In this document: positions 21,502-54,676 of the stretch, in pieces | How positions within the stretch are numbered: the stretch's first letter is position 1 | Layout: each line of letters opens with the position of its first letter | DNA from: Sulfurovum sp. | Lineage (GTDB): Bacteria; Campylobacterota; Campylobacteria; Campylobacterales; Sulfurovaceae | DNA length: 64,000 nt | Assembly (NCBI GenBank): GCA_027062365.1 | Contig: JAMOTK010000076.1 | Span: 1-64,000, forward strand | Direction of reading: 5' to 3' | Position numbers and translations under genes: made by a program | Notes under the pieces: model-generated | The model's input: the letters and a program-made list of their open reading frames with translations, nothing else | Told to the model about the DNA's origin: nothing | Databases searched by the model: none

Positions 21502-21553
21502 AATTATTGAATGTTGTATTTTTATGACATAGAATTTATACAAGGGGGTATGC

Positions 21554-23020: not shown

Positions 23021-23035
23021 GGGAGGTAGATTATT

Positions 23036-23701: not shown

Positions 23702-23711
23702 AGAGGAAAAG

Positions 23712-23912: not shown

Positions 23913-23925
23913 AGGAGGAGAATAA

Positions 23926-30560: not shown

Positions 30561-31163
30561 ATGTATACAAGGAAGCCATCTTTTGTGTATGGATTTCATG
30601 GTTTAGATAAAAGTATTGCCATGAAGATTTTAAATAAAGAGATGGATTTTAAATCAAGTAATAATAACTATGATTGGCTAGGTAAGGGTATTTACTTTTG
30701 GGAAAATAATTTTCAAAGAGCAGAAGAGTATGCTAGAGAAGATGCTAAAAGAGCATATACAAAAATTAAAGAACCTTTCACACTTGGTGCTGTGATTGAC
30801 CTTGGAAATTGTTTTGATTTATTAGAACAACATAATTTAGAATTTTTAAAATATGCATATAGTGAATTTAAAAAATCATTGATTGAAAAACATGAAATAC
30901 TCCCCCAGAATACCCCTTTTACCTCTAATGATTTTGATTTTAAGAAACGAGAACTTGATTGTGCTGTTATTCGTTATGCTCATAAACTTGCAAAAAAAGA
31001 AGGTATGGAATTTGACTCTGTAAGAGCAGGATTTTGGGAAGGAAGACCTCTTTATCATGGAGCAGGATTTAAAGAAAAAAATCATATTCAATTGGCTATC
31101 TTAAATCCAAATTGTATCAAAGGTATTTTTTTACCTCGACACTTAAATGAAGATAATAATTAA
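30561..31163 (+). CDS. ADP-ribosyltransferase-fold (PARP-like) protein, possible toxin
   Basis: 200 residues. VYGFHGLDKSIA gives the His of motif 1 (His13), and DWLGKGIYFWENNFQRAEEYA resembles the PARP GKGIYF motif with its Tyr (Tyr45). Motif 3 is less clear: KNHIQLAILNPNCIKGIF places Gln177 where Glu is common. ADP-ribosyltransferases move ADP-ribose from NAD to protein, RNA or DNA. Proteins of this look exist widely as hypothetical genes in accessory regions. With the abutting small gene it makes a toxin-antitoxin-like pair. Activity and target are unproven. Confidence 0.6.
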   Translation: MYTRKPSFVYGFHGLDKSIAMKILNKEMDFKSSNNNYDWLGKGIYFWENNFQRAEEYAREDAKRAYTKIKEPFTLGAVIDLGNCFDLLEQHNLEFLKYAYSEFKKSLIEKHEILPQNTPFTSNDFDFKKRELDCAVIRYAHKLAKKEGMEFDSVRAGFWEGRPLYHGAGFKEKNHIQLAILNPNCIKGIFLPRHLNEDNN

Positions 31164-37185: not shown

Positions 37186-37575
37186 ATGACTCACGTAATT
37201 ACAGAACATCCATATTTTGGTGTATTTGTTTTATTCGCGTTAACAGCTGTAGCATTTCCAGCAACGCTATGGGCTGCACGTTTGGTATCACGAAAAATGG
37301 CACGACTAGACACCGAGAGGCTCAAACTTAGTATCTACGAATGTGGACCAGAGGTAACAAAGCAACCAAATACAATATCGGTACAATTTTATCTTATTGC
37401 ACTTTTATTTATTTTATTTGATGTAGAGATTATCTTTATGTTCCCATGGGCGATTGATTTTAAATTATTGGGTTGGTTTGGATTTGCTGAGATGTTATTA
37501 TTTATATTATTACTTACGATTGGTTTCGTATACGCATGGAAAAAAGGAGCACTTGAATGGCACAGCATCAAGTAA
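37186..37575 (+). CDS. nuoA: NADH-quinone oxidoreductase subunit A
   Basis: 129 residues, three membrane spans, with the conserved YECGPE(V) loop and [15 protein letters not shown] helix. First gene of the complex I operon; it helps join the peripheral and membrane arms. It overlaps nuoB by 19 bases. Confidence 0.96.
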
Positions 37576-38099
37576 ATTATGCCTCTTCGGCAGGATTACC
37601 GATAGCATTAACATCGGTAGACAAATTGGTAAACTGGGGGCGTTCAAACTCACTTTGGCCTTTGACGTATGGACTCGCATGTTGTGCGATTGAGATGATG
37701 GCATCGGGGGCTTCTCGTTATGACTTCGATAGAATGGGGACAATCTTTAGAGCCTCTCCAAGACAAGCTGATGTGATGATTTTAGCAGGTACACTTTCTA
37801 AGAAGCATTCCGAATTTGCAAGAAGACTCTATGACCAAATGACAGAGCCTAAATGGGTCATCTCTATGGGGTCATGTGCCAATACAGGTGGAATGTTCAA
37901 TACCTACGCAACAGTTCAAGGGGTAGATAGAATTATCCCTGTTGATATTTATCTTCCTGGGTGTGCACCTCGTCCTGAGACACTTCAATATGCGATGATG
38001 ATGCTTCAAAAGAAAATTCGTAAAGAGTCTGCTGATATGAAAAAGAATACAAAGCAAGACTTAACGACCCAAACGGGTAAAAGAGCGAGGTTAATATAA
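37557..38099 (+). CDS. nuoB: NADH-quinone oxidoreductase subunit B
   Basis: 180 residues. It holds cluster N2, the last Fe-S centre before quinone; ligands Cys42, Cys43 ([10 protein letters not shown]), Cys107 (GSCANTGG) and Cys136 (PGCAPRPE) are all present. Overlaps both neighbours (19 bases with nuoA, 1 base with nuoC). Confidence 0.97.
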
Positions 38100-38881
38100 T
38101 GCGTAAATATGTACCAAAAGACAATGTTCAAGCAAAATCGTATTATACAGATAGATTTTGGGTTGCTCCACGTGTCCCAAGAAGCACGGTAGAAGATACA
38201 CACTTTTTAGCAGTGGTAGAAGCCGTAGGAACACAAGCCAATGAGACCTATGTCGAATTAGGGCAACTTGTGATTCATATCAATCCTAAAAACAATTTTG
38301 AAGTGATGAAAACACTCAAAGAAAAATGTGGTTATACACAATGTTCGGAGCAATCGGCTGTAGATTATTTGGCACAAGACAATGAATTTGAACTTTTTTG
38401 GCAACTTCTTAATATCAATGAAGCCAAAAGAATAAGAGTTATTTGTCGTTTAGCCAATGGCTTAGCGATTGAGAGTATCGAACCTTTGTATAAATCAGCA
38501 AACTTTGCTGAACGTGAGATGTTTGATATGTTTGGTATCAAAGTAAACAATCACCCTTTCTTGAAGCGTATTTTAATGCCTGATGACTGGGAAGGAAATC
38601 CTTTACTTAAAACCTATCCATTACAAGGAGATGAATTTGCTTCATGGTATGAAGTAGATAAAATCTTTGGTAAAGAGTACCGTGATATTATCGGACCTGA
38701 AAACAGAGACCCTGCCAAAATTGATACAGAAGATACAAAACGTTTCTCACGTGTAGGATATGAAGTGCCATTTGGTGCAGATATTTCTGAGGGTGAAACC
38801 AAAACAGCGATTGAGTATAGTGAAACATTCTTGGTTGATTATAATAAAAATTCATCTAAGCAATTAGATGAGAGAAGATAG
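38099..38881 (+). CDS. nuoC: NADH-quinone oxidoreductase subunit C
   Basis: 260 residues. The 30-kDa family motif [42 protein letters not shown] is intact. NuoC packs against NuoD near the quinone site. It is a separate gene here, not fused to nuoD as in enterobacteria. The N-terminal region (1-60) includes an extension with [15 protein letters not shown]. Confidence 0.95.
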
Positions 38882-38889
38882 GGGAGCGT

Positions 38890-40119
38890 ATGCAAGTAGC
38901 AAATAAATTATCACCATTTTTTGAAAACCTCAATTTTGAGCGTGATGACAATACTATGGTTATCAACTTTGGTCCGCAACATCCTTCTGCTCATGGTCAA
39001 TTAAGACTGGTTTTAGAGCTAGATGGTGAACAAGTGGTAAAAGCCTATCCTGATATTGGGTATCTTCACCGTGGTATCGAAAAAATGGCTGAAAATATGA
39101 CCTATAATGAGTTTTTACCCACAACAGATAGACTCGATTATATTGCATCTACGTCAAATAACTATGCCTATGCACTGGCAGTTGAAAAACTCATTGGTGT
39201 CGAAGCACCTAGACGTGCGCAAGTGATTAGAACAATGCTTTTAGAGCTTAATCGTATTATCTCTCACTTGTTCTTTGTGGCAACACATGCTCTTGATGTT
39301 GGTGCGATGTCTGTATTTCTTTATGCCTTTAGAGAACGTGAATTTGCAATGGACTTAATGGAAGACTATTGTGGAGCAAGACTCACGCATTCTGCTGTAC
39401 GTATCGGTGGAGTTCCTCTTGATATTCCTAAGGGATGGCTAGAGAATGCTGCTGCATTTTGTGACAAAGTAGATTATGAGGTAGAACATACCTATGAAGC
39501 CTTGCTTACAGAAAACCGTATCTGGAAAATGCGTTTAGAAGATGTAGGGGTTATCTCTGCTGAAGATGCACTTTCATGGGGCTGTTCTGGTGTGATGCTA
39601 AGAGGGTCTGGAGTGAAATGGGATATTAGAAAAGAAGAGCCGTATGAACTTTATCCTGAGCTTGATTTTGATATACCTATCTCTGATAGATGTGACTCTT
39701 ATGGACGGTATAAACTGTATATTGAAGAGATGAGACAATCTACACGTATTATCAGACAACTTATCCCTATGTATAAAGATACAAAGCCTCAATTGATGGC
39801 ACATTCTCCACAATATATTTCTGCTCCAAAAGAAGAAATTATGACACAAAACTATGCACTTATGCAACATTTTGTACTTGTGACTCAAGGGATGAGACCA
39901 CCAAAAGGTGAAGTGTATATCCCAACAGAATCACCCAAAGGTGAACTAGGTTTCTACATCAAGTCAGAAGGTGAACCGTATGCCTATAGACTCAAATGTA
40001 GAGCACCATCATTTTTCCATACAGGGCTTCTTCAAAAGCTTTTGGTAGGGACATACATTGCAGACGTTGTTACGATTATTGGTACGACCAATATCGTATT
40101 CGGCGAAGTCGATAGATAA
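38890..40119 (+). CDS. nuoD: NADH-quinone oxidoreductase subunit D
   Basis: 409 residues. [33 protein letters not shown] and the closing [18 protein letters not shown] are the 49-kDa subunit signatures that form the quinone pocket with NuoB. Confidence 0.97.
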
Positions 40120-40128
40120 GGAGACAGC

Positions 40129-40374
40129 ATGAAAAGATATGATTTAAGACACTTAAAAGATGATTTTTATGACCGAATGCTTGAACTCATTGATAAGGGT
40201 ATCAAAGTAGATGAAGTAGGCATTTTTATGTTTGAAGTAGGAGATTTTTCTTCTATTCAAAAATCTGCTGATGTGATTAAGCAGAGTGGACATACTTTGA
40301 TGAATTCACTTAAATTCAATGAAGTTGACTGGACGATTGTCGTCAAAAAAGTAGATTTAGGTAAGGCAGAGTAA
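40129..40374 (+). CDS. NuoX-like small subunit in the NuoE position
   Basis: 81 residues with no cysteines, so it cannot carry the N1a [2Fe-2S] cluster of true NuoE. It resembles the small protein found at this position in Campylobacter and Helicobacter complex I operons (called NuoX or annotated as NuoE). It probably helps dock a non-standard electron input partner. Its stop overlaps the next gene's start. Confidence 0.7.
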   Translation: MKRYDLRHLKDDFYDRMLELIDKGIKVDEVGIFMFEVGDFSSIQKSADVIKQSGHTLMNSLKFNEVDWTIVVKKVDLGKAE

Positions 40375-42383
40375 TGTCTGGAGTAATATTTTCTACTTGG
40401 AGGGATGAGTTTATTGACAACCGTGATAAACCTGCTAACGAGTGGAATGAAACGGGATTTAAATTACCCGAAACCTACCATGGAGACACAAACTCTAAAG
40501 CCTTTATCGGTTGGGATGGTGTGGCTATTTTTGATGAAGATATAGATGCTGTAGAATTGGCAAACCAATATGCAGCACAATATCAAGAATATTCAGAAGC
40601 CTGTGGGCGTTGCGCACCAGGGCGATGGGGTGGTAGAATCCTATATGATTTGCTCGATAAAATTGCACGTGGTGAAGGTTCTCATGATGATGTGATACAT
40701 CTCAAAGAGATAAGTCAAACGATGATGATTACATCTAAATGTGAAATTGGGAAAACAGTACCAAAACCTATTTTGGATTTAATGGAACACTATGCAGAGC
40801 AGTTTACTACTTGTATTGATAATCAAGTCCCTTCTAAGCATTATGATGGAGATACGTCTTATATTGCCAAGGTTACAGCCCCTTGTACGGATATGTGTCC
40901 TGCTCATGTGGATATTCCTGCGTATATAGAAGGTGTGAGAGATATGGTCTTTACGGAGTCTCTGTCGGCTACACGTCAAACCATGCCTTTGGCTCATACT
41001 TGTGGGCGTGTTTGTCCTCATCCTTGTGAAGATGCTTGTAGACGTGCGAATCTTGATGAGCCTATCTCTATTATGGAACTCAAACGTATTGGTGCTGATT
41101 ATGAAACCGACCATGAAGTGCCTTGGCTTCATCCAAATGAGCCAAAACCAGCACGTAATGATGGTAAGAAAATAGCCATTATCGGGGCAGGTCCAGCAGG
41201 ACTTACTGCTGCGTATTATCTAGCACTTGAAGGGATTCAAGTTGATATTTTTGAAGACTTACCTGTCAATGGTGGAGAGGTAGCTGTGGGTGTACCTGAA
41301 TACCGTATGCCTATAGACAAATACAATAAAGATATTGATCTTGTGTTAGAAATGCCTACGGTAAGTATTACCAATAACCATCGTGTGAACGCAGAACGTC
41401 TCAAAGAGATAGAATCAGAGTATGATGCAACACTTTTAGGATTTGGAGCAAGACTTTCTAAAAAGGTTCGTGCCAATAATGAAAATCCAAAAATGGATGG
41501 ATATTGGGGTGCAATCTCTATGCTTGACAAAGTCAATTTGTGGCATAAATATGGTATCGGAAGCCCAGCAGAAGAAGACCTAAAAGGCAAAACTGTGGTC
41601 TGTGTCGGTGGAGGATTTACTTCTATGGATGTGGTGCGTTGTTCGATTCGTGAGGGTGCTAAAAAAGTGATTATGCTGTACCGTCGTGATGAAAAAACGA
41701 TTATCCGTAACACGACCTATGAAGAGTATCATGAAGCTGTTGAAGAGGGTGTTGAATTTATCTTTCACTCAGCTATAGAAGAGATTTTTGATGATGGTAA
41801 TAAACTGACCAAACTTAAAGTCAATACATTTGAGCTTGTCCCCGACCCAAATGGAGGACGCGCACAACTTGTCAAGATTGATGATGGTGATTTTGAAGTA
41901 GATATTGATTATCTTATTCCTGCTGTTTCACAAGCACTTGATACACAAATTTTGCCAGAAGAATGGAACATGGAGATGACTTCATGGAACTCTATCTTGA
42001 CCAATGGAAAAGACTTTATGACTTCCAAAGAAGGTGTTTTTGCAGCAGGGGATTGTGAATATGGTCCGATGACTATCGTCAATGCTGTAGGACAGGCTAG
42101 ACGAGCAGCATCTGTGATGAGCCGTTATATTTATGATGGTAAATGTACTTTGCTTGATGATGAAATCATGGAAGACCACTTAAATCGCCTAAAAGTGTAT
42201 GATAAAAAAGAGACAATTACAGGTTGGATGCCAGGTATTCCACGAGCCGTGAGCCAAAAATTGGAAACAGAAGAACGTAACACCAACAATAAAGAAGTCA
42301 ATTTAGGCTTTACAGGTGAAGAGGCAATCTCTGAAGCTGAAAGATGTATGCGTTGTTATTATATTTCTATGGTAGCAGTCTAA
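40374..42383 (+). CDS. NuoF Fe-S domain fused to GltD-like FAD/NAD(P)H oxidoreductase
   Basis: 669 residues. Residues ~65-145 match the C-terminal Fe-S domain of NuoF (EACGRCAPGRWGGRIL... SKCEIGKTVPKPIL): Cys77, Cys80 and Cys123 are kept, but the third N3 ligand is Gly83. The FMN/NADH part of NuoF is absent. From ~168 on it is GltD-like: Cys171, Cys175, Cys210, Cys214, Cys218 and Cys222 for Fe-S clusters, the FAD fold IIGAGPAGLTAA, a second nucleotide fold VVCVGGGFTSMDVVR...YRRDEKT, and AAGDCEYGP. It likely feeds electrons into complex I from NAD(P)H or a ferredoxin/flavodoxin-linked route; the donor is unknown. Confidence 0.85.
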   Translation: MSGVIFSTWRDEFIDNRDKPANEWNETGFKLPETYHGDTNSKAFIGWDGVAIFDEDIDAVELANQYAAQYQEYSEACGRCAPGRWGGRILYDLLDKIARGEGSHDDVIHLKEISQTMMITSKCEIGKTVPKPILDLMEHYAEQFTTCIDNQVPSKHYDGDTSYIAKVTAPCTDMCPAHVDIPAYIEGVRDMVFTESLSATRQTMPLAHTCGRVCPHPCEDACRRANLDEPISIMELKRIGADYETDHEVPWLHPNEPKPARNDGKKIAIIGAGPAGLTAAYYLALEGIQVDIFEDLPVNGGEVAVGVPEYRMPIDKYNKDIDLVLEMPTVSITNNHRVNAERLKEIESEYDATLLGFGARLSKKVRANNENPKMDGYWGAISMLDKVNLWHKYGIGSPAEEDLKGKTVVCVGGGFTSMDVVRCSIREGAKKVIMLYRRDEKTIIRNTTYEEYHEAVEEGVEFIFHSAIEEIFDDGNKLTKLKVNTFELVPDPNGGRAQLVKIDDGDFEVDIDYLIPAVSQALDTQILPEEWNMEMTSWNSILTNGKDFMTSKEGVFAAGDCEYGPMTIVNAVGQARRAASVMSRYIYDGKCTLLDDEIMEDHLNRLKVYDKKETITGWMPGIPRAVSQKLETEERNTNNKEVNLGFTGEEAISEAERCMRCYYISMVAV

Positions 42384-42398
42384 TGAGAGGGGTATAAG

Positions 42399-44675
42399 AT
42401 GGGTATTCATAATTCAATCAATACAGGTAAAGAAATTACTCTCACGATTAATGGTAAAGTGTGTAAAAGTACTTTTGGTAAAACGATTATTACGATAGCA
42501 CGTGAGAATGATATTTATATTCCTACGATGTGTTATCTCACTAAAGTAAAACCTATCGCCTCATGTCGTATGTGTATCGTCAATGTCGAAGGGGTAGAGG
42601 GTGCGATACTCTCTTGTCAAGAAAAAGCCACCGATGGTGCTGTGATTACAACCGACAATGAAGCACTACATAAAGAGCGTCAAAATATTATGAAACTTTA
42701 TAATGTCAATCATCCTTTAGAGTGTGGAGTATGTGACAAGTCTGGTGAATGTGATTTACAAAATAAGACAATGGAATTTGATATAAAAGAACAGCCTTTT
42801 ACCACACGAGAACAACACAGACCGATAGAAAATTGGGGGCATGTTTCTTATGACCCTGCACTTTGTATCATGTGTGAAAAGTGTGTGAGGGTCTCAACTG
42901 AGATTACAGGCGATGAAGCACTCAAACTTCAATTTGGTGGGTACTCTTCAACGATTATTAATACCAAAAAAGATAAAAATTATGCCTCACTAGGCGAGGC
43001 AGCGGCTGTGTGTCCTGTGGGGGCATTGGTAGATACTAAGTTTAAATATTCTACCAATGCATGGGAACTCGAAAAGATTCCTTCGGCTTGTCCTCATTGT
43101 GGTGGTGGATGTCAGATGAGTTATGAAGTCAAACATGATAAAATTTATCGTGTGACCAATAACTTTGAATTTACTTCACTGTGTGGAGCAGGGCGTTATG
43201 GTTTTGACTATGCCAATAAAAATGTGAGCAAAGACAAAGAAGCATTTAGCAAAGCTGTTAAAGCAATGAAAGATGCAAAAAATATTATTTTTGCATCACA
43301 AATCACCAATGAAGAAGCCTTTATTTTACAAAAGATAAAAGAGCGTACAGGCGCAAAACTCATTTCAAGGGAAGCTAGAGCATATCAGAAATTTATGAGA
43401 GCGTATGGGTCTATCACTGGGAAAAATCTTTACTCAGGGACGCTCAAAGGTATCTCTGAATCTACAGCGATTATTGTACTAGGTACAAAAATTTATGATG
43501 ATGCACCTATTGTTAAATACCATATCAACATGGCTTCAAAGTGGCATAGAGCAAGAGTCGCGTATATGCACCCACTAGAAGAAAATGAGATGAAAAATAT
43601 CGTAACACAGTTCATTAAATATGAACCTCAAAGTGAAGAGGGTGTGAGTGCTTTACTTGTAGAGATGTTACTTCGTGATATTGACCTGCCTATCAAGGTA
43701 CAATCTTTTCTACGTGATTTGGATATTGGCAATTTGAGTGCTGAATCCAATGTAGGAGAAGAAGAGTTAGAGAGCCTTAGAAAGTCTATGCTTAAAAAAA
43801 GAGGCTTTTCTTTGGTCATAGGGTCTGACCTCTATGCACATCCGAGAGCGACAAATATTGCTAAAATTTTAGCATTGGTAGAAAAATATACAGATTTCAA
43901 TGTTGTTTGTGTTCCTCCTGCTGGTAATGCTATGGGTGTTTCTCTCATTTGTGACCTTGACGATGAGCAAAGTGAAGGAGAGAGTATTGGTTACAATGCC
44001 GATGCTGATTTTGTATTGTCTGCTTTGGGTGATGCTTCTAGGCATGACAATAGCTTAGATATGCCTGCTGCAAACCAACAAGAAGGCACAATTACCAGTA
44101 ATGACAAACGTGTCGTACCGATGAATGTGTCTCAACCTTATGGTGGGTATGTCTTAAATGACATTGCCAATGCACTAGGAATCCATGCAGAATATACGAT
44201 TGACTATACCCCAAATTTACCTAAAGAGGGTGGATTTAAAGCCTTGGCTTTTGATGGGCTACCTGATTATTTTGACACGATGGGTGTAGAACACAGAGGG
44301 TATCTTTTGGACAATGCTAAGGTAGCAGTAGAAGATACGATAGAAGAGGTGGCTGAATTGGATGGTTTTGATGGGGCAGTAATCTATATTTGCAACCCTG
44401 AAGAACAATTTTCAGCCTTTACACATATATGTAAATCTTTAGAAAGAGAGGCTGTTTTATTGGGTTCTTCTCAGTTTGCAACGATAGGCAAGATAAGTGA
44501 TGGAGAGAGACTCTCTTTTATTATTGATGGCGTGACGTTTAAACGAGTGTTTAAGATTGATACATTTATGAAGGGAACCATTGCCCTTAACCCTACCTAT
44601 GATATGGGATTAAGTACGCCTTTGGTATCCTCTTATAGGTTTAGTAAAGTAGAAATTCAGAAAGTAGGAAGCTAA
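42399..44675 (+). CDS. nuoG: NuoG paralogue 1, full Fe-S set including N7
   Basis: 758 residues. N-terminal [2Fe-2S] ligands Cys45, Cys56, Cys59, Cys73; N5 ligands His105, Cys109, Cys112, Cys118; N4-type Cys156, Cys159, Cys162, Cys205 (CPVGAL). A molybdopterin-family domain follows with an N7-type site CPHCGGGC (Cys231, Cys234, Cys238) and Cys262. The C-terminal part is the degenerate molybdoenzyme domain. It is followed after one base by a second NuoG gene. Confidence 0.93.
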   Translation: MGIHNSINTGKEITLTINGKVCKSTFGKTIITIARENDIYIPTMCYLTKVKPIASCRMCIVNVEGVEGAILSCQEKATDGAVITTDNEALHKERQNIMKLYNVNHPLECGVCDKSGECDLQNKTMEFDIKEQPFTTREQHRPIENWGHVSYDPALCIMCEKCVRVSTEITGDEALKLQFGGYSSTIINTKKDKNYASLGEAAAVCPVGALVDTKFKYSTNAWELEKIPSACPHCGGGCQMSYEVKHDKIYRVTNNFEFTSLCGAGRYGFDYANKNVSKDKEAFSKAVKAMKDAKNIIFASQITNEEAFILQKIKERTGAKLISREARAYQKFMRAYGSITGKNLYSGTLKGISESTAIIVLGTKIYDDAPIVKYHINMASKWHRARVAYMHPLEENEMKNIVTQFIKYEPQSEEGVSALLVEMLLRDIDLPIKVQSFLRDLDIGNLSAESNVGEEELESLRKSMLKKRGFSLVIGSDLYAHPRATNIAKILALVEKYTDFNVVCVPPAGNAMGVSLICDLDDEQSEGESIGYNADADFVLSALGDASRHDNSLDMPAANQQEGTITSNDKRVVPMNVSQPYGGYVLNDIANALGIHAEYTIDYTPNLPKEGGFKALAFDGLPDYFDTMGVEHRGYLLDNAKVAVEDTIEEVAELDGFDGAVIYICNPEEQFSAFTHICKSLEREAVLLGSSQFATIGKISDGERLSFIIDGVTFKRVFKIDTFMKGTIALNPTYDMGLSTPLVSSYRFSKVEIQKVGS

Positions 44676-44676
44676 T

Positions 44677-47157
44677 ATGAGTGAAGTACAAACGGTAGAT
44701 AATATGATTTCTATCACGATTGACGGTACTGAGTTTAAAGCAAAAGAGGGTGAATTTATCCTTAATGCTGCTCGTGCTAATGATGTTTTTATCCCTGCTA
44801 TATGCTACTTGACAAGATGTTCGCCTACCTTGGCGTGTCGTATTTGTCTTGTAGAAGCAGATGGAAAACAAGTTTATGCCTGTAACGCAAAAGTAAAAGA
44901 AGGGATGGCAATCACCGTTGATACGCCAAATATTCTTGAAGAGCGTAGAGCCATTATGGAAGTATATGATGTCAATCACCCACTACAGTGTGGTGTATGT
45001 GACAAATCAGGTGAATGTGAATTACAAAACTATACCTTAGAGCTTGGTGTAGATTCTCAATCTTACATGATACCAGATGGTAAACGTGAAACCACAGATT
45101 GGTCTTCGGTACTACACTATGATTCAGGTCTTTGTATCGTATGTGAGAGATGTACCACAGTGTGTAAAGATATGATTGGGGATGCTGCGATTACGACAGT
45201 CAAACGTGGAGGTGCAGAATTAGACAAAGGCTATAAAGAGACTATGCCTAAAGATGCATACTCTATGTGGAACAAGCTTCAAAAGTCTATCATCGCTCCA
45301 AGTAATGGTACAAACTTTACAAACTGTTCAGACTGTGGCGAATGTATCGCCGTATGTCCTGTAGGTGCATTGGCATCTGTAGATTTTGTCTATACCTCTA
45401 ATGCATGGGACTTAAAACGAGTACCAGCTGTAGCAGCACATTCTTCTGATGGGGCACAGATTTATTATGAAGTCAAACCTACCTCTATAGAAGATAGAAC
45501 AGAGAAGATTTATAGAATCACCAATGAGTGGTCGTATGTTTCTTTGGATGGGTCAGCACGTTTTGCCTATGACTTCCAAAATACCACAGCAACCAAAGAT
45601 GAAGAAGCCTTTAAGAATGCTATTAATGCTTTCAAAAAAGCCGATACCATTCGCTTTAATTCTATGATAACAAATGAAGAGGCTTTCATGCTTCAAACAT
45701 TAAAAGAAAAAATGGGAATCAAGCTTTATAACCCTGAAGTAAAAGCCTTTCAAACATTCTTACATCATTATGAAGCAGCTTCTGGTAATTCACTTTGGAC
45801 AACAGATACCGATGCTATCATGAAAAAGTCTGATTTTGTTATCTCTATTGGTGCTGCTTTGAGAAATGATTCTCCTGCGATGAAATATGCTTTCAATAAT
45901 GTACAAAAGCTCAATAAAGGGGCAGGGTTTTATTTTCATCCTGTTGGAGATACATTGATTCCTACCTTTGGTAAAAATGTGCAAGTTTTCAATCATAAAG
46001 TAGGTCTTGAAGAAGCAGCACTTTATTTGGTACTTGATTTATTTGCAGATAAAGACAAACTCTCTTCTGAAGTCAAAGACTATATTGAGAGCTTCAAAAA
46101 CACTGAGACAAAAACTATCAAAGAGAAAAAGATAGTCACCGTCAGAGAGATGGTTCTTAATGAAGAGAGTGGAGAAGAGGAAGAAGTATCTAAAAAAGTC
46201 ACTGAAATGGTAGACAAAGAAATTAGTGTTACTAGCAATGGACTTGTGAGCTTATTGGGTGGAGATGCTTCTAAATTTGATGATGTATTTGCCAAAATGA
46301 TGAAGAAAAAAGAACACTTCTCTATGATGTTGGGTGAAGATTTATATTATCATGACAAAGCAGAAAATATTGCCAAATTGGTAGCATTGGTTGAGGCTAC
46401 TTGTAACATTGATGTAGTGATGACACCACCAAAATCAAATGCACTGGGGGTAGCACTCCTTTGTGAACTTGATGATGCACAGAGTGGTTATACCATTGGA
46501 TACAATGAAAATGGTGACTTTAGACTCTCTGCTCTTGGGACGGGGGATATAGATATACCTGCGATGAATCAGCAAGAGGGGACACTCACAAGTATTGCTA
46601 AACGTGTACTTCCTACCAATGCAGCGGTTGAATACAATGGGTATGAACTCAATGACTTTATGAAAGAGCTTGTAGATGCTCCTGCGTTGACTATTGATTG
46701 GACGGTGATGTTGCCTACAGATAAAGGCTTTAAATCGCTTGAATTTGATACTTTACCTAATAGCTTTAGCAATGATGGGAAAGACAATCGTGGATATAGA
46801 CTAGAAACGTGTCATGTAGAAGCCCAACTACCAGAAGTAGCAGAGTGTGACCAAAGTGCTGTTTTAGAAGGCGAGATTGCATATCGTTGTAATCCTGCTA
46901 GACAATTTAATGACTTTACTGATAAATCTCATGAAATTTTTGAAACATTTTCACTGTATGCAAGTGTAGAAAAAGCAGAGAGTTTAGGCGATAAGGTAGA
47001 AGTGGTTTTTGAAAATGGAAGTATTACTTTAGATGTCGTAGCCGATGCCAAAATCCTTGGGGATATTGTAAAAGTACCAGATTTTAAATCAGCTCAAGGT
47101 GTGTATGACCTCTTTGCAGGGTCACGCTATCAAACAGTAACATTGAGAAAGGTGTAA
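44677..47157 (+). CDS. nuoG: NuoG paralogue 2, N7 ligands lost, extra ferredoxin-like cysteines
   Basis: 826 residues, clearly related to the preceding gene along its length (shared AMNQQEGTxTS and YNGYELND type motifs). [2Fe-2S] Cys43, Cys54, Cys57, Cys69; N5 His101, Cys105, Cys108, Cys114; two CxxCxxCxxxC sets (Cys153-163 and Cys217-227), enough for two [4Fe-4S] clusters. At the N7 position it has AAHSSDGA instead of CPHCGGGC, and Asp291 replaces the last Cys. A charged insert at ~470-510 (KTIKEKKIVTV... SGEEEEVSKKV) adds length. The tandem pair arose by duplication and then diverged (inference). Confidence 0.92.
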   Translation: MSEVQTVDNMISITIDGTEFKAKEGEFILNAARANDVFIPAICYLTRCSPTLACRICLVEADGKQVYACNAKVKEGMAITVDTPNILEERRAIMEVYDVNHPLQCGVCDKSGECELQNYTLELGVDSQSYMIPDGKRETTDWSSVLHYDSGLCIVCERCTTVCKDMIGDAAITTVKRGGAELDKGYKETMPKDAYSMWNKLQKSIIAPSNGTNFTNCSDCGECIAVCPVGALASVDFVYTSNAWDLKRVPAVAAHSSDGAQIYYEVKPTSIEDRTEKIYRITNEWSYVSLDGSARFAYDFQNTTATKDEEAFKNAINAFKKADTIRFNSMITNEEAFMLQTLKEKMGIKLYNPEVKAFQTFLHHYEAASGNSLWTTDTDAIMKKSDFVISIGAALRNDSPAMKYAFNNVQKLNKGAGFYFHPVGDTLIPTFGKNVQVFNHKVGLEEAALYLVLDLFADKDKLSSEVKDYIESFKNTETKTIKEKKIVTVREMVLNEESGEEEEVSKKVTEMVDKEISVTSNGLVSLLGGDASKFDDVFAKMMKKKEHFSMMLGEDLYYHDKAENIAKLVALVEATCNIDVVMTPPKSNALGVALLCELDDAQSGYTIGYNENGDFRLSALGTGDIDIPAMNQQEGTLTSIAKRVLPTNAAVEYNGYELNDFMKELVDAPALTIDWTVMLPTDKGFKSLEFDTLPNSFSNDGKDNRGYRLETCHVEAQLPEVAECDQSAVLEGEIAYRCNPARQFNDFTDKSHEIFETFSLYASVEKAESLGDKVEVVFENGSITLDVVADAKILGDIVKVPDFKSAQGVYDLFAGSRYQTVTLRKV

Positions 47158-47158
47158 T

Positions 47159-48205
47159 ATGGAAACAACACTCGCACAACATATTGTAACAGATCTACCA
47201 CAGGTCACTGCACTAGGTATCATCATCAAAGCCATTATTATTTTGGCAGTGATTTCGGCTATTGCAGGATTTGGTACCTATATCGAAAGAAAAGTCCTTG
47301 CATTTATGCAAAGACGTTTAGGACCAATGCACGTAGGTCCTTTTGGGTTATTACAAATCGCAGCAGATGGAATCAAGCTTTTTACAAAAGAAGATATTAT
47401 CCCTCAAAATGCCAATAAATTTATCTTTATGATAGCACCAATTATCACAGCAGCGACAGCATTTATTGCTCTTTCTTCTGTGCCTGTGTTCCCAGACTTT
47501 ACTATACCAGAGTTTATCCCTTTATTGGGTGGGGTATTTGTACCGTCTATTGCATCGGATTTAAATATTGGTATTTTATTTGTACTAGGTATGATGGCAG
47601 CAGGGCTATATGGTCCACTTTTGGCTGGTATGTCTCAAGCGAATAAATGGGGTATCATCGGAGCAGCTAGAACAGCTGTGCAGTTTCTTTCTTATGAAGT
47701 GGTTACTGGGCTTTCTATCTTAGCCCCTATCATGCTAGTAGGGTCACTCTCTTTTGTTGATTTTAATAATTATCAACAAGAGGGTGTCTTATCATGGATG
47801 ATTTGGCAACAGCCTGTAGCCTTTGTGCTTTTCCTCATCGCAGGATTTGCCGAGACCAATAGAACACCTTTTGACCTTTTAGAGCATGAAGCCGAAGTAG
47901 TCTCAGGATATGCCACAGAGTATTCAGGTATGAGATGGGGAATGTTCTTTATTGGTGAGTATGCCAATATGATTACTATTTCTATTATTGCATCTATTGT
48001 ATTCTTGGGTGGATATGATTCAGCAAGTATGTTTGGATGGTTGACGATTATGCTGAAAATTGCATTTTTCTTCTTCTTAATGTTATGGGTAAGAGCCGCA
48101 TGGCCACATGTAAGACCAGATCAGTTGATGTGGCTTTGTTGGAAAGTATTGATGCCATTGGCACTTGTAAATATTCTAATTACAGCCATAGTAATGATGG
48201 TATAA
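47159..48205 (+). CDS. nuoH: NADH-quinone oxidoreductase subunit H
   Basis: 348 residues, about eight membrane spans. ERKVLAFMQRRLGPMHVGPFGLLQ, the quinone-channel loop AETNRTPFDLLEHEAEVVSGYATEYSG and WVRAAWPHVRPDQLM are diagnostic. It links the Fe-S arm to the proton pumps. Confidence 0.97.
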   Translation: METTLAQHIVTDLPQVTALGIIIKAIIILAVISAIAGFGTYIERKVLAFMQRRLGPMHVGPFGLLQIAADGIKLFTKEDIIPQNANKFIFMIAPIITAATAFIALSSVPVFPDFTIPEFIPLLGGVFVPSIASDLNIGILFVLGMMAAGLYGPLLAGMSQANKWGIIGAARTAVQFLSYEVVTGLSILAPIMLVGSLSFVDFNNYQQEGVLSWMIWQQPVAFVLFLIAGFAETNRTPFDLLEHEAEVVSGYATEYSGMRWGMFFIGEYANMITISIIASIVFLGGYDSASMFGWLTIMLKIAFFFFLMLWVRAAWPHVRPDQLMWLCWKVLMPLALVNILITAIVMMV

Positions 48206-48214
48206 GGAGCAGAT

Positions 48215-48838
48215 ATGAGTTTAGAACAATTTAAAAATAGAAATGTAGGCATACACACCTATAAAACACTTGATGTAGGTACACCTCCCAACACAGGGAT
48301 GGAAAAATTTACACAAGTTGTAACAAGAGCCGTCAAAGGTGAGCTTTTTGTAGGGCTTTGGGTGGTTATGAGAGAAATGATAAATACACTCGTAAAAGGG
48401 GATGTGCATACGGTAAAATATCCTTTTGAGAAGATGCCAATATCACCACGTTATAGAGCCATTCATGATATGCTTAGATTACTTGAATCTGGTAATTATA
48501 GATGTATCGGATGTGGTCTATGTGAAAAGATATGTATCTCAAATTGTATTTCAATGGATACAAGATATGATGAAGAACAGCGTAAAGAAGTGAGTGAATA
48601 TACGATTAACTTTGGGCGTTGTATCTTTTGTGGTTATTGTGCAGAAGTGTGTCCTGAACTTGCTATTGTTCATGGTCCACGTTATGAAAATGCTTCAGAA
48701 CAACGTGCAGGGTATTCACTTTTTGAAGATATGCTTACGCCTATCGATAAATTGAACTTACAACAAGAATATGATGGCTTTGGTGCCGTATCACCAAATG
48801 CTGACGAAAATATCACACAAACGCCATTAGCGTACTAG
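48215..48838 (+). CDS. nuoI: NADH-quinone oxidoreductase subunit I
   Basis: 207 residues with two ferredoxin motifs: CIGCGLCEKIC and CIFCGYCAEVCPE (clusters N6a, N6b). The first lacks the usual Pro after its last Cys and has an extra Cys (ISNCIS). An N-terminal amphipathic region contacts NuoH. It is 9 bases after nuoH. Confidence 0.96.
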   Translation: MSLEQFKNRNVGIHTYKTLDVGTPPNTGMEKFTQVVTRAVKGELFVGLWVVMREMINTLVKGDVHTVKYPFEKMPISPRYRAIHDMLRLLESGNYRCIGCGLCEKICISNCISMDTRYDEEQRKEVSEYTINFGRCIFCGYCAEVCPELAIVHGPRYENASEQRAGYSLFEDMLTPIDKLNLQQEYDGFGAVSPNADENITQTPLAY

Positions 48839-48850
48839 GGAGAGATTAAA

Positions 48851-49429
48851 ATGTATGAATTGATAGCCTTTTACCTATTTTCGGCTTTAATAATAGGACT
48901 GTTTTTAGTAACAGTAATGAGTAAAAATATACTGTATGCCATGACTTCATTGGCAGCAGGTATGGTACTTATCTCAGGTTTTTTCTTTACCTTAGGTGCA
49001 GATTTTTTGGGTGTGGTACAACTTATCGTGTATGTAGGAGCTATTATGGCTCTGTATTCATTTGCGATGATGTTCTTTGATGCAACCAAAGATATTAAAG
49101 AAAAAAATACAAGTTCAGCGTTGGTATTTTTATTAGGAGGCATGAGTGCATTGGTTCTTGTCCTTATCTTTGTAGGATTAAATCAAGCAAACCTTGCCCA
49201 TCCTGATGCGATTACAGCACTGTATCCTATGACGGAAGGTGTTGGAAATGCACAAGATGTAGGAATGGTACTCTTTACCAAATACCTTGTACCTTTTGAA
49301 GTAGCAGCCGTGATGTTATTGGTGGCTATGATAGCAGGGATTATACTAGCAGGTAAAAAGATGGATGACAGTCTCACCGAAGATTTGGGTGCAGATGAAG
49401 AAATTATGATAGTAAAGGATAAAAAATGA
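48851..49429 (+). CDS. nuoJ: NADH-quinone oxidoreductase subunit J
   Basis: 192 residues, five membrane spans. The pi-bulge helix region FLGVVQLIVYVGAIMALYSFAMMF is conserved. The stop overlaps nuoK (ATGA). Confidence 0.94.
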   Translation: MYELIAFYLFSALIIGLFLVTVMSKNILYAMTSLAAGMVLISGFFFTLGADFLGVVQLIVYVGAIMALYSFAMMFFDATKDIKEKNTSSALVFLLGGMSALVLVLIFVGLNQANLAHPDAITALYPMTEGVGNAQDVGMVLFTKYLVPFEVAAVMLLVAMIAGIILAGKKMDDSLTEDLGADEEIMIVKDKK

Positions 49430-49728
49430 TAGGTTTATCTCATTACCTAATCGTATCAGCGATAATATTTTCGATAGGATTGGTTGGCGTACTTAGAAGA
49501 AGAAATCTACTTATGCTATTTTTTGCAACAGAGGTCATGCTCAATGCCGTCAATATCGCATTTGCAGCTATTTCACACTATTACAATGATTTAACAGGTC
49601 AAATGTTTGCCTTCTTTATTATCGCTATTGCAGCGTCTGAAGTAGCCGTTGGACTAGGTATCTTAATTGTATTGTATAAAAAACATGGTTCTCTTGACTT
49701 AGATGACCTAGCAAGTATGAGAGGATAG
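49426..49728 (+). CDS. nuoK: NADH-quinone oxidoreductase subunit K
   Basis: 100 residues, three membrane spans with the conserved acidic residues of the proton path (FATEVMLNAVNIAF; AASEVAVGLGILIVLYK). Confidence 0.95.
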   Translation: MIGLSHYLIVSAIIFSIGLVGVLRRRNLLMLFFATEVMLNAVNIAFAAISHYYNDLTGQMFAFFIIAIAASEVAVGLGILIVLYKKHGSLDLDDLASMRG

Positions 49729-49730
49729 GT

Positions 49731-51650
49731 ATGGAAACTTTAGTATATATAGCACTTTTTGCACCCTTTGTAGGTTCTTTATTTGCAGCACTTTTTGGTA
49801 TGAGTGAGAGAAGAATCTTTGTAGGTGTCATTGGCTCATCTTTGATTGGTCTATCTTTTATCGCTTCAGCGATACTGGCGTATAATCTGTATCTTACAGG
49901 TACAGTGATACAGGTCACGATGATGGATTGGATTCATGCTGGAGACTTCAATGTCGAATTTGGCTTTGTGATTGACCAGATTTCAGTTACGATGATGACG
50001 GTAGTTACTTTGGTTTCTACGGTCGTACACATCTATGCGATTGGATATATGGACCATGACAAGAGTTTTAATAGATTCTTCTCTTACCTATCTGCTTTCG
50101 TATTTTCGATGATGATACTTGTGATGTCTGACAATTTCTTGGGTCTATTTATCGGTTGGGAAGGCGTGGGTGTTTGTTCATGGTTATTGGTTGGATTTTG
50201 GTATCACAAGCCAGACCAAGACAGAAAAGACAACCCTTCTATCTCTCCATCATGGGCAGCAAATGAAGCGTTTATTATGAACCGTATTGCTGACCTTGGA
50301 ATGCTTATTGGTATCTTTATACTTTACTGGAATACAGGTTCATTAAAATATGATGAAGTATTTGCACAGCTTCCTTATCTTAGTGATAGTGTCCTTGTAG
50401 GTGCTGCGATTGCACTCTTTATTGGGGCAATGGGTAAATCAGCACAATTTCCACTTCATACTTGGCTTACAGATGCCATGGAAGGTCCTACACCAGTATC
50501 AGCGTTGATTCATGCAGCTACAATGGTAACAGCAGGGGTTTTCTTGGTGATTAGGTCTAATCCACTTTACTCTATGGACGCAGTCTCAGGTGTGTCATTC
50601 TTTATCGCATCTTTAGGTACATTCGTAGCATTTTATGCAGCGTCTATGGCATTGGTCGAACGTGACCTTAAGCGTATCATTGCTTACTCTACACTTTCAC
50701 AGTTAGGTTATATGTTTGCAGCTGTTGGACTTGGTGCATATTGGATAGCATTGTTCCACCTTGCAGCTCACGCATTCTTTAAGGCACTTCTATTCTTAGG
50801 TGGGGGTAATGTTATGCATGCAATGCATGATGAACTTGACCTCTTTAAAATGGGTGCATTGAGAAAAAAAATGAGAGGTACATGGATTTATATGACCGTG
50901 GCTTCTATCGCACTAGCAGGACTTCCTCCTCTAGCAGGATTTTGGTCAAAAGATGCGATTATCGAAACAGCATTTAATGAACATACCTATATCTTATGGA
51001 TTGTATTGGTGATTACAGCTGGTATGACGGCATTTTATTCATTTAGACAAGTTTTCTTGTCTTTCCATGGTGAAGACCGTCACACGGCACTAGGTTTTGA
51101 CCCTCACGAAATGTACAAATTTGTGCTTGTAGCAATGTCTCCTTTGGCAGTCCTTGCAGTGATTACAGGTTGGTTTATGGGAACGTACAAAGCCTTTATC
51201 TACAATATAGGTACTACCGTACAGTATGATATGTCTGAACATACACATCATTTGGCAACATACTTAGGGCTTCTTGTTATATTTGTAGCTCTTTCAGGGA
51301 TTGCTTATGCGTACATAAAATATGGACAAACAGGCGACAAAGCATGGAAAAGATCAGAAAAAGTTGAAAATGGCTTCTTCTATAAATTGCTTATCAATCA
51401 ATACTATATACCTAAGTTTTATGAAGAGTTTATCACAAAACCTTATATGATGATTTCTGAAGTACTTTGGAAAAAAGTTGACTTAAAAATTGTTGATGCA
51501 ACGGTAGATAATATCGCTAAATTCCTTTATGTCTCAGGGGATAAAACAAGAAGTATGCAAACAGGTAACCTTTCAAACTATCTAAATTGGATGGCTGTAG
51601 GTGCTGTGTTGTTATTATTAATCGCTGCTATTTCAGCGATGATAGCTTAA
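49731..51650 (+). CDS. nuoL: NADH-quinone oxidoreductase subunit L
   Basis: 639 residues, about 16 membrane spans, an antiporter-like proton pump. GWEGVGVCSWLLVGFW, MGKSAQFPLHTWLTDAMEGPTPVSALIHAATMVTAGVFL and the AHAFFKALLFLGGGNVMH motif are typical. The long lateral helix is at the C-terminal side. Confidence 0.97.
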   Translation: METLVYIALFAPFVGSLFAALFGMSERRIFVGVIGSSLIGLSFIASAILAYNLYLTGTVIQVTMMDWIHAGDFNVEFGFVIDQISVTMMTVVTLVSTVVHIYAIGYMDHDKSFNRFFSYLSAFVFSMMILVMSDNFLGLFIGWEGVGVCSWLLVGFWYHKPDQDRKDNPSISPSWAANEAFIMNRIADLGMLIGIFILYWNTGSLKYDEVFAQLPYLSDSVLVGAAIALFIGAMGKSAQFPLHTWLTDAMEGPTPVSALIHAATMVTAGVFLVIRSNPLYSMDAVSGVSFFIASLGTFVAFYAASMALVERDLKRIIAYSTLSQLGYMFAAVGLGAYWIALFHLAAHAFFKALLFLGGGNVMHAMHDELDLFKMGALRKKMRGTWIYMTVASIALAGLPPLAGFWSKDAIIETAFNEHTYILWIVLVITAGMTAFYSFRQVFLSFHGEDRHTALGFDPHEMYKFVLVAMSPLAVLAVITGWFMGTYKAFIYNIGTTVQYDMSEHTHHLATYLGLLVIFVALSGIAYAYIKYGQTGDKAWKRSEKVENGFFYKLLINQYYIPKFYEEFITKPYMMISEVLWKKVDLKIVDATVDNIAKFLYVSGDKTRSMQTGNLSNYLNWMAVGAVLLLLIAAISAMIA

Positions 51651-51659
51651 GGGGTTAAA

Positions 51660-53186
51660 ATGGATAATATATTAAGTATATTGGTATTCTTCCCAGCAAT
51701 CGCAGGATTGCTAGGATTTGTAGTAGATAAAAAGAGTATAAGAGCGTACGGTATTACCGTCACAGCGATTGAATTTTTTCTCTCTTTATGGTTGTGGTTT
51801 AGTTTTGATATGAACAATGCAGGGATGCAGTTTGTTGAAATGATACCTCTCATTCCTGATATGGGGATTTCTTATTATCTTGGAGCTGATGGGATTTCAT
51901 TGTTTATCATTCTTATGACTACATTGATGACCCTTATTGGTATGGCATCTATGGGTGAGACAAAGAATATTAAAAATATGATTATCACACTTCTTTTCTT
52001 AGAGATGACAATGGTAGGGGTATTTGTAGCACTTGATGCCATTATCTTCTATCTATTCTGGGAACTTTCTCTTGTACCAATGCTTTATATCATTGGTGCA
52101 TGGGGTGGACCTCTAAGAGTGTACGCATCGATTAAGTTTTTCCTTTATACCTTTACAGGGTCACTTATCATGCTAGTAGGTATGTTATTTGTAGCATACA
52201 TCTATCATAGCCTTACAGGTATATGGAGTTTTGCTATTACAGATTGGTATGCCTTGGTTTTACCTGTGGAGTATCAATTATGGCTCTTTGGGGCATTCTT
52301 TATTGGTTTTGCTATCAAAGTACCAATGTTTCCATTTCATACATGGATTCCTTATGCTCACGGTCAAGCACCTACCATTGGTTCGGTGATACTAGCAGCT
52401 GTTTTACTTAAAATGGGTACGTATGGATTTGTAAGATTTTCACTTCCAATGTTCCCTGATGCTTCTGTGATGGCGATTACTCCTATTGCTGTTTTAGCAC
52501 TTATTATGGTGATTTATACAGCCATGATTGCGTATGCACAAAAAGACATTAAGCAAGTCATCGCCTATTCATCCGTCTCACACATGGGAATTATCATGTT
52601 AGGACTTTTTGCGATGAACGCAGAAGGACTTTCAGGTTCTATCTTCCAAATGTTATCGCATGGTATCGTATCAGGGGCATTGTTTATGCTTGTGGGTATG
52701 ATTTATGAGAGAAGACACACAAAAGAGCTTTCAGAGTTTGGTGGATTGGCAGCGGTGATGCCTAAATTTGCTATCATCTTTGGTATCATGCTTATGGCAT
52801 CTGTAGGGCTTCCTCTTACTATTGGATTTGTGGGTGAGTTTTTAGTACTTCTTGGTTTCTATCAAATCTCTCCTATGATGACTATCTTAGCAGGTACATC
52901 TATCATCTTGGGTGCTATCTATATGCTAAGAGTAATGAAACTTACATTCTTTGGTCCACTCGACAAAGAAGAAAACAAAAAGTTAAAAGATTTAAACACA
53001 AGAGAAATATGGTCACTCATTCCATTGGTAGCTATCGTGATATGGTTAGGTGTCTATCCCAAACCAATCTTAGCACCTATTGACAATTCAGTCAATGCAC
53101 TTTTGACATTTATGGATGAAAAAGCAATTACACCTGAGGCAAAAGAGATAATAAAAGTTGCCAAATTAACGAAGGAGGCACAGTAA
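51660..53186 (+). CDS. nuoM: NADH-quinone oxidoreductase subunit M
   Basis: 508 residues, about 14 membrane spans. FYLFWELSLVPMLYIIGAWGG, KVPMFPFHTWIPYAHGQAPTIGSVILAAVLLKMGTYGFVRF and YSSVSHMGIIMLG are conserved. One base of overlap with nuoN. Confidence 0.97.
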   Translation: MDNILSILVFFPAIAGLLGFVVDKKSIRAYGITVTAIEFFLSLWLWFSFDMNNAGMQFVEMIPLIPDMGISYYLGADGISLFIILMTTLMTLIGMASMGETKNIKNMIITLLFLEMTMVGVFVALDAIIFYLFWELSLVPMLYIIGAWGGPLRVYASIKFFLYTFTGSLIMLVGMLFVAYIYHSLTGIWSFAITDWYALVLPVEYQLWLFGAFFIGFAIKVPMFPFHTWIPYAHGQAPTIGSVILAAVLLKMGTYGFVRFSLPMFPDASVMAITPIAVLALIMVIYTAMIAYAQKDIKQVIAYSSVSHMGIIMLGLFAMNAEGLSGSIFQMLSHGIVSGALFMLVGMIYERRHTKELSEFGGLAAVMPKFAIIFGIMLMASVGLPLTIGFVGEFLVLLGFYQISPMMTILAGTSIILGAIYMLRVMKLTFFGPLDKEENKKLKDLNTREIWSLIPLVAIVIWLGVYPKPILAPIDNSVNALLTFMDEKAITPEAKEIIKVAKLTKEAQ

Positions 53187-54676
53187 TGTTAGAGCCTATT
53201 AACGTCAGTTTAGAGAGTCTAAACCTTATTACCCTTGCTCCTATGCTTATTGCGATTGCAGGTGGTTTGATTATTTTAATTATTGATTTATTGAATGAAA
53301 AACTAGATAAATCATTGTATGTAATGCTTACTGTATTGATACTATTTGTAGACTTTGGTGCTGTGTTGGGTCTCAATGTCAACGAACGAGGCTTCTTTGA
53401 TGTCATGCTGATTGATGGTATTGCTATCATATCACAGCTTATGATTATTGGTGCTTCGATGTTATTTATCCCTTTGGCACTCACCTCAAAGAGATTCCAT
53501 GAGTATTCATACCCTGAATTTTTTGCCCTCTTCTTATTTATGGTAGCAGGATTCCAATTTATGGTATCTACTGATAACCTTATCCTTATCTTTGTAGGGA
53601 TTGAGACAGCATCATTGGCACTGTATACTTTGATTGCACTTCACAATAGAGCAGATTCTTATGAAGCTGCGGTGAAGTACTTTACCATGGGTGCATTGGC
53701 CGCTGCATTTTTTGCTATGGGTTCAGCCGTAGTTTATGCATTGACAGGGTCAGTAGAACTCTATAAAGTAGCAGAAGTTTTAGCTACACGCTTGGATGAT
53801 ACAGGTATCATGATTGCTATCTTTGGTTCATCTGTACTCTTGCTTGTTGCTTTCTCTTTTAAGCTTTCACTATTTCCTTTCCATACATGGGCTCCTGATG
53901 TCTATGAGGGTGCATCTGCTCCACTGGCTGGATATATGGCAGTTGTTCCCAAAATCGCAGCTTTTGTTGTGAGTATCAGAATCTTTGGTATGTATATCGA
54001 CTTGGGTATCGAGTGGGTAAGATGGACATTGATTATCCTAGCAGTGATTACGATGACACTAGCAAATATTATGGCATTGGTACAAAATGATGTCAAACGT
54101 ATGTTGGCATACTCTTCTATCTCTCATGCTGGTTTCATCATGGCAGCCTTGGCTCTAAATACCACAGAGGGGAATACAAGTATCTTCTTGTACTATGCTC
54201 TCTTTATGTTTACGAACCTTGGGGCATTTGCAATGTTGTGGATTTCACGTCACAAAACCAGAAGATTTGACAAACGTTATGACCATCCGTATGAGAAATT
54301 TGCAGGACTTATCCAAATCATGCCAATTGGTGCAGTGATGATGGCGATATTTATGCTTTCACTCGCAGGTGTACCTCCATTCTCACTCTTTTGGGGTAAA
54401 ATTTATGTGATGCAAGCTACTGTAAATGCTGGATATGTACCATTAGCGATTATCATGGGACTTAACTCGGCTATTGCAGCATACTATTACTTGAAACTCA
54501 TTGTGTATATGTTCTTAAAAGACCCTGTAAAAGATGTAGATACGGTGTATTACAATATCTCTAAACCTTTGATGGTTATCATCGGATTAGCAGGTGTTGC
54601 TACCTTTACGGCTATCTTCTATGTTCAATCACTTCTTTCTTACTTCTCAGCGATGATTTCGATAAGTGGATACTAA
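53186..54676 (+). CDS. nuoN: NADH-quinone oxidoreductase subunit N
   Basis: 496 residues, about 14 membrane spans. ETASLALYTLIALHNRADSYEAAVKYFTMGALAAAFF, FKLSLFPFHTWAPDVYEGASAPLAGYMAVVPKIAAF and YSSISHAGFIMAAL are intact. Last gene of the nuo operon; a strong hairpin follows. Confidence 0.97.
   Translation: MLEPINVSLESLNLITLAPMLIAIAGGLIILIIDLLNEKLDKSLYVMLTVLILFVDFGAVLGLNVNERGFFDVMLIDGIAIISQLMIIGASMLFIPLALTSKRFHEYSYPEFFALFLFMVAGFQFMVSTDNLILIFVGIETASLALYTLIALHNRADSYEAAVKYFTMGALAAAFFAMGSAVVYALTGSVELYKVAEVLATRLDDTGIMIAIFGSSVLLLVAFSFKLSLFPFHTWAPDVYEGASAPLAGYMAVVPKIAAFVVSIRIFGMYIDLGIEWVRWTLIILAVITMTLANIMALVQNDVKRMLAYSSISHAGFIMAALALNTTEGNTSIFLYYALFMFTNLGAFAMLWISRHKTRRFDKRYDHPYEKFAGLIQIMPIGAVMMAIFMLSLAGVPPFSLFWGKIYVMQATVNAGYVPLAIIMGLNSAIAAYYYLKLIVYMFLKDPVKDVDTVYYNISKPLMVIIGLAGVATFTAIFYVQSLLSYFSAMISISGY

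Follow-up and report, generated by a model that had tools for sequence, protein, structure and literature searches.

Two tandem NuoG paralogues with differing Fe-S sites, and a GltD-type NAD(P)H protein, in the complex I operon of a Sulfurovum genome

Members of Campylobacter and Helicobacter encode a NuoXY-type complex I from which the NADH-binding subunits NuoE and NuoF are absent, and in which NuoX, encoded beside nuoD, and the short protein NuoY precede a single NuoG of the PRK08493 type (PMC6682613; PMC4178425). In C. jejuni, the short protein (Cj1574c) has been described as the one through which flavodoxin delivers its electrons to complex I (PMC4178425; PMC6682613). H. pylori and C. jejuni also have FqrB, a flavodoxin:quinone/NADP reductase (cited in PMC6682613). 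With the usual NADH module absent, the route by which electrons enter the Campylobacterota complex I matters for gut pathogens as well as for dominant vent autotrophs. Also already known are the soluble Stn-type enzymes (StnABC/NfnAB, Sporomusa-type; PMC7483475; PDB 8oh5, 9bov, 9n5u), in which a GltD-type domain is fused to a NuoG-like Fe-S protein and is accompanied by an FMN-bearing NuoF with its C-terminal Fe-S domain, and a dicluster NuoG (PDB 7q5y). Canonical complex I (E. coli, T. thermophilus) has one NuoG, fed by an FMN-bearing NuoF.

The locus described here lies in a 64,000-nucleotide stretch (the window) of a Sulfurovum genome (2.30 Mb, 77 contigs, 99.8% complete); the closest named relatives of its second NuoG are Sulfurovum MAGs, with identities up to 88%. 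The window holds a complete nuo operon (37186-54676; Table 1) with the genes A, B, C, D, X, Y, G1, G2, H, I, J, K, L, M, and N, in which all eleven of NuoA, B, C, D, H, I, J, K, L, M, and N were matched by Pfam/NCBIfam models, and which contains one set of membrane-arm genes. The gene order is that of the Campylobacter/Helicobacter operon. As there, PF16514 NuoX stands in the place of NuoE, the mark of the Campylobacterota-type complex I, and the thioredoxin-fold [2Fe-2S] NuoE and the FMN/NADH-domain NuoF of the 14-subunit NADH:quinone oxidoreductase are absent. X adjoins nuoD in almost all of the loci inspected, and, judged by position, we take it to be the counterpart of Cj1575c/NuoX. Unlike the Campylobacter/Helicobacter operon, in which Y is absent and a short NuoY of the Cj1574c type lies between NuoX and NuoG, the window has Y and a full-length, Fe-S-bearing G1 in this slot. 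It thereby also differs from canonical complex I in having two NuoG proteins; we know of no canonical complex I with two tandem NuoGs. A search of the window genome for further members of the PRK08493-type NuoG family found none beyond G1 and G2.

Table 1. Genes of the nuo operon in the window, and FqrB-like genes located between nuoX and nuoG2 in three other loci.
Feature	Position	Strand	Description
nuoA	37186-37575	+	Pfam match; set nuoA-D: Oxidored_q4, Oxidored_q6, Complex1_30kDa, Complex1_49kDa
nuoB	37557-38099	+	Pfam match, nuoA-D set
nuoC	38099-38881	+	Pfam match, nuoA-D set
nuoD	38890-40119	+	Pfam match, nuoA-D set
X	40129-40374	+	81 aa; PF16514 "putative NADH-UQ oxidoreductase chain E" (Pfam, 3e-40); no cysteine
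Y	40374-42383	+	669 aa; Pfam NADH_4Fe-4S, Fer4_20, Pyr_redox_2
NuoG1 (G1)	42399-44675	+	758 aa; sites N1b, N5, N4, N7
NuoG2 (G2)	44677-47157	+	826 aa; sites N1b, N5, N4, cluster II (2[4Fe-4S] dicluster)
nuoH	47159-48205	+	Pfam/NCBIfam match; set nuoH-N: NADHdh, NuoI, Oxidored_q3, Oxidored_q2, three Proton_antipo_M subunits
nuoI	48215-48838	+	Pfam/NCBIfam match, nuoH-N set
nuoJ	48851-49429	+	Pfam/NCBIfam match, nuoH-N set
nuoK	49426-49728	+	Pfam/NCBIfam match, nuoH-N set
nuoL	49731-51650	+	Pfam/NCBIfam match, nuoH-N set
nuoM	51660-53186	+	Pfam/NCBIfam match, nuoH-N set
nuoN	53186-54676	+	Pfam/NCBIfam match, nuoH-N set
FqrB-like flavoprotein	L122:7346-8362	antisense	between nuoX and nuoG2
FqrB-like flavoprotein	L120:4072-5073	antisense	between nuoX and nuoG2
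FqrB-like flavoprotein	L121:8617-9618	antisense	between nuoX and nuoG2

An earlier note on this DNA had described two intact tandem NuoG paralogues, one base apart and related over their full length, and the coordinates, domains, and profiles agree with that description. Both reading frames are uninterrupted, and a single base separates the stop of G1 from the start of G2. Both proteins have Fer2_4 and NADH-G_4Fe-4S_3 domains, and both match NF006305 (PRK08493, the Campylobacterota NuoG; cut-off 591 bits), G1 with 823 and G2 with 1042 bits. A general NuoG profile favors G1 (231 bits vs. 161 for G2), so that sequence alone does not identify G2 as the core subunit. A pseudogene or frameshift was rejected for both genes, since neither frame is interrupted and dozens of relatives conserve both; a viral contig search gave no match. 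AlphaFold2 (AF2) models of G1 (along its length) and of G2 match FdhA and complex I NuoG chains, and confirm no more than the overall NuoG/FdhA fold for the two proteins. The models are of low confidence over the Fe-S domains (narrow input alignments), including the N-terminal part of G2, and thus cluster distances cannot be judged from them. An insert in G2 (46060-46240, residues about 463-521) is modeled as a long beta-hairpin; in one Sulfurovaceae genus, G2 is about 777 aa long and is without residues corresponding to about 473-520 of the window G2.

All ligands of N1b, His-ligated N5, and N4, the sites shared with canonical NuoG, are present in both paralogues. By alignment, these are, for N1b, C45/56/59/73 in G1 and C43/54/57/69 in G2; for N5, H105 and C109/112/118 in G1, and H101 and C105/108/114 in G2; and for cluster I (equivalent to N4), C156/159/162/205 in G1 and C153/156/159/227 in G2. 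The second ferredoxin-type [4Fe-4S] site, here named cluster II, has ligands C163, C217, C220, and C223 in G2, which in this respect resembles the dicluster chain 7q5y_A with both of its CxxCxxC sets; the same columns in G1 hold S166, Y195, L198, and A201. Thus, the claim that a second CxxCxxCxxxC set occurs only in G2 is correct as regards cluster II, but G1 retains the first CxxCxxC and the last cysteine, so the N4 site is still present there. For N7, which G1 shares with canonical NuoG, the alignment bears out what had been noted: G1 has C231, C234, C238, and C262, and G2 has A253, S256, A260, and D291. A displaced N7 in G2 is ruled out, since residues 240-300 contain no cysteine. These ligand columns are conserved across 91 G1 and 134 G2 homologues, and the pattern in the window is therefore not due to chance.

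These homologues come from nuo loci of Campylobacterota genomes and 80 named contigs, many of them MAG contigs, after removal of duplicates (134 G2, 91 full-length G1); the sample is rich in Sulfurovaceae, so that proportions describe the sample rather than the phylum, and the counts are not independent of phylogeny. N1b, N5, and N4 are complete in 91/91 G1 and 134/134 G2. A complete cluster II is present in 133/134 G2 vs. 44/91 G1, and a complete N7 in 90/91 G1 (82 with four cysteines, 8 with three cysteines and a histidine in third place) vs. 82/134 G2. There is thus a real bias by which G2 keeps cluster II and G1 keeps N7. Reciprocal Fe-S content was rejected as a universal rule: among the 91 genomes with both proteins, 42 have all sites in both, 25 have lost only cluster II of G1, 22 have lost this together with N7 of G2, and two have lost only N7 of G2. 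The differing Fe-S content reported for the window is therefore sound, and its reading as a basic division of labor holds only in part. The genus-mates L079-L081 have a G1 without cluster II and a G2 still with N7; this half-way state and the 42 complete pairs indicate that the window represents a late reciprocal loss, and the ancestral state was likely one with all five sites in G1 and in G2. On trees, at least four changes are required for cluster II of G1, one for N7 of G1, and at least three for N7 of G2. A separate deep tree, with a single canonical NuoG outgroup row, does not reject G1 as one clade (AU p 0.44). In ordinary complex I, N7 is described as far off the electron path and probably vestigial, the work cited for this reporting a role in stability rather than electron transfer (PMC10212512); loss of N7 from G2 is thus unsurprising, and the oddity is its retention in G1.

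Y comprises the C-terminal Fe-S domain of NuoF, without the FMN domain, fused to a GltD-type FAD/NAD(P)H domain with Fer4_20 [4Fe-4S] sites; residues 168-662 match StnC/NfnA, and residues 29-182 match NfnB/HydB and the NuoF C-terminus. The same components occur in Stn/Nfn enzymes, but there GltD is fused to the NuoG-like domain and the NuoF partner bears FMN, whereas in the window they are encoded by separate genes within a complex I operon and the FMN domain of NuoF is missing. The N3-like site of Y has three of four cysteines (C77, C80, C123), invariant in 21/21 Y proteins, and perhaps holds a [3Fe-4S] or solvent-exposed cluster. In residues 77-84 (40602-40625, CGRCAPGR), glycine replaces the third N3 cysteine of NuoF.

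Y and full-length G1 are closely linked. Among loci that show G2 together with nuoD or X, 101 of the 103 with Y encode a full-length G1, the remaining two having G1 split into two frames, and none of the 27 without Y does so (0/27). Y-less genomes, which include families fitting Campylobacter, Helicobacter, and Sulfurospirillum (family names inferred), instead encode a protein of 231-339 aa between X and G2. Its profile, built without G1 fragments at contig ends, aligns with the C-terminus of G1 (hhalign E 1.4e-56, score 421) better than with G2 (1.7e-23, score 182); no cysteine is conserved in this protein. The signature D.G.LS.E....EE, found in the C-terminal domain of the window G1 as D.G.LSAES..GEE at 442, occurs in 18/20 of these stubs and 49/56 G1, vs. 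0/81 G2. Derivation of the stub from G2 was rejected, as profile and signature both favor G1. By position and size, the stub would correspond to Cj1574c (NuoY) of C. jejuni, so that the short protein between X and G2 in Campylobacter/Helicobacter would be a homologue of the G1 C-terminus. The state (Y with full-length G1 vs. stub) changes at least seven times on the G2 tree; the deep forks of this tree are poorly supported, and the firm evidence comes only from stubs nested among relatives with Y and G1, namely L112 (Sulfurovaceae), L122/L123 (Sulfurovum), and L051.

Other operons encode G2 without any G1 (L120, L121, L206, L207, and L211). Such operons indicate that G1 is an add-on rather than a second core subunit, and its complete loss in some Sulfurovum shows that even the C-terminal domain of G1 is not strictly required. 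G2 is present in every examined nuo locus of the PRK08493 type, partly by construction, since loci were found via G2/PRK08493; its persistence where G1 is lost points to G2 as the NuoG of the core.

Within Sulfurovum, a flavoprotein can occur in place of Y and G1. Sulfurovum sp. AR (L122) and its close relatives lack Y and the Fe-S half of G1 but retain a C-terminal G1 piece of 448-480 aa, and the gap holds an antisense gene for a 338-aa FAD/NAD(P) flavoprotein, which we presume to be FqrB-like, given the wide occurrence of its family. In L120, L121, L132, L185, and others, the stub has been lost as well. Among 78 Sulfurovum genomes, 18 have this operon-type gene and 53 have Y, with no overlap (Fisher p 2e-12, kinship ignored; at least four switches on the G2 tree), and it lies antisense beside G2 in 10/10 loci read out of these 18 genomes. 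The seven genomes with neither comprise three with no G2 match and four in which a G2 or G1 match is at or near a contig end; in these four, the missing Y is probably an assembly gap. The operon-type protein has its highest identity outside the genus (62-68%) to genes of family f4, vs. ≤47% to homologues in other Sulfurovaceae of the phylum sample and ≤51% to those of Y-bearing Sulfurovum, which makes a horizontal origin likely. Most members of f4, which is probably Nautiliaceae, are without this NuoG (for comparison, NuoEFG are reported missing; PMC2628731). FqrB-like flavoproteins (about 335 aa, FAD/NAD(P) pyridine-nucleotide reductases) occur in 143/150 Campylobacterota genomes, and any such gene is absent from 6/33 genomes with Y vs. 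1/117 without Y in the phylum sample. Searches found no FqrB-like gene in the window genome and no close relative of the protein in the PDB. Y and G1 together behave as one functional unit, removable or exchangeable for an NAD(P)H flavoprotein, and this exchange points to a role in NAD(P)H/ferredoxin electron exchange.

From the observed gene content, the ligands and their conservation, the linkage of Y to full-length G1, the homology of the stub, and the mutual exclusion of Y and the operon FqrB-like gene, we propose, at about even confidence, that G2 is the core NuoG and that Y and G1, arranged in series with G2, form a removable module for electron exchange with NAD(P)H/ferredoxin. The inferred assembly, order of electron carriers, substrate, and direction would then be as follows. 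G2 would be the obligatory NuoG of the Campylobacterota-type complex I, onto which Y and G1 would plug. NAD(P)H (or ferredoxin/flavodoxin) would exchange electrons with the FAD and Fe-S sites of Y, from which electrons would pass along the G1 relay (N1b, N4, N5, and perhaps N7) to the G2 relay (cluster II, N1b, N4, N5), and onward via NuoI and NuoB to menaquinone, the membrane arm coupling this flow to proton translocation. Judging from the physiology of a sulfur-oxidizing rTCA autotroph, net flow would probably often be reversed, with proton-motive force driving electrons from quinol to ferredoxin and NAD(P)+. Because cluster II of G2 is kept with or without G1, it is there that G1 would probably make contact or, in genomes lacking G1, ferredoxin/flavodoxin. 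After loss of Y, G1 would decay to a cofactor-free C-terminal stub or vanish, and a separate FqrB-like flavoprotein may take over NAD(P)H exchange.

The single set of membrane and Q-module genes alongside two NuoGs, and the G2-only operons of close relatives, would also fit two alternative complexes with a common membrane arm, one with G2 only (ferredoxin/flavodoxin) and one with Y and G1 (NAD(P)H), assembled according to conditions. We consider this unlikely, as the C-terminal domain of G1 stays beside G2 after the Fe-S part has gone, which would be odd for a protein that has no contact with G2. Alternatively, Y and G1 could make up a soluble oxidoreductase of the Stn/Sfr kind, acting between NAD(P)H and ferredoxin (or flavodoxin) and expressed together with complex I without belonging to it. 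Y resembles the NADPH domain of StnC/NfnA, and G1 the NuoG-like part of those enzymes, and replacement by a seemingly soluble FqrB-like flavoprotein fits this as well as it fits the series arrangement. The conserved G1 stubs in X-stub-G2 operons, and the reported action of Cj1574c, in the same position, with complex I (PMC4178425), make such an enzyme rather doubtful. It is very improbable that G1 is mainly structural, with N7 stabilizing the protein, its clusters off the main path, and the asymmetric losses reflecting neutral decay: the reported stability role of an off-path, probably vestigial N7 in ordinary complex I (PMC10212512) and the repeated loss of cluster II from G1 are in keeping with this, but the N1b, N5, and N4 ligands are invariant in 91 G1, and full-length G1 is retained only with the redox protein Y. 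That several lineages keep the C-terminal domain of G1 next to G2 suggests that G1 touches the complex. An arrangement in series within one complex is favored because this domain persists in complex I operons and because Cj1574c reportedly functions with complex I (PMC4178425).

More tentatively, and at somewhat less than even confidence, the ancestral Campylobacterota complex I may have had an X-Y-G1-G2 double-NuoG wire with a GltD-type module for NAD(P)H entry. On many occasions this module would have shrunk to a G1 stub without cofactors (Cj1574c being a NuoG in decay) or given way to an FqrB-like flavoprotein, with cluster II of G2, not the stub, as the flavodoxin/ferredoxin contact. On this evidence, the Campylobacter and Helicobacter adaptor encoded between NuoX and NuoG seems to be what is left of a second NuoG and to carry no Fe-S cluster, so that electrons would have to enter elsewhere. 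Natural variants in which the electron-input module is present, absent, or swapped within one genus allow the entry route to be compared among close relatives. In the open-access papers that the search covered, we found neither the double NuoG nor the FqrB-like swap described, nor any mention of NuoY as a remnant of NuoG1. Annotations of two NuoGs for such genomes surely exist in databases.

Elsewhere in the window, two neighboring terminal oxidases (15293-24816) are recognizable from ORF translations only, as a cytochrome c oxidase set (15293-19195) and a cbb3-type set (21554-24816). A 200-aa ORF (30561-31163) beside a low-GC patch shows weak, below-cut-off likeness to ADP-ribosyltransferases (ART-PolyVal, E 0.0095). 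The window also encodes a large RHS-repeat protein (183-4232) and a 1778-aa surface protein (56074-61410) with near-identical cadherin/Ig-like repeats and NHL repeats.
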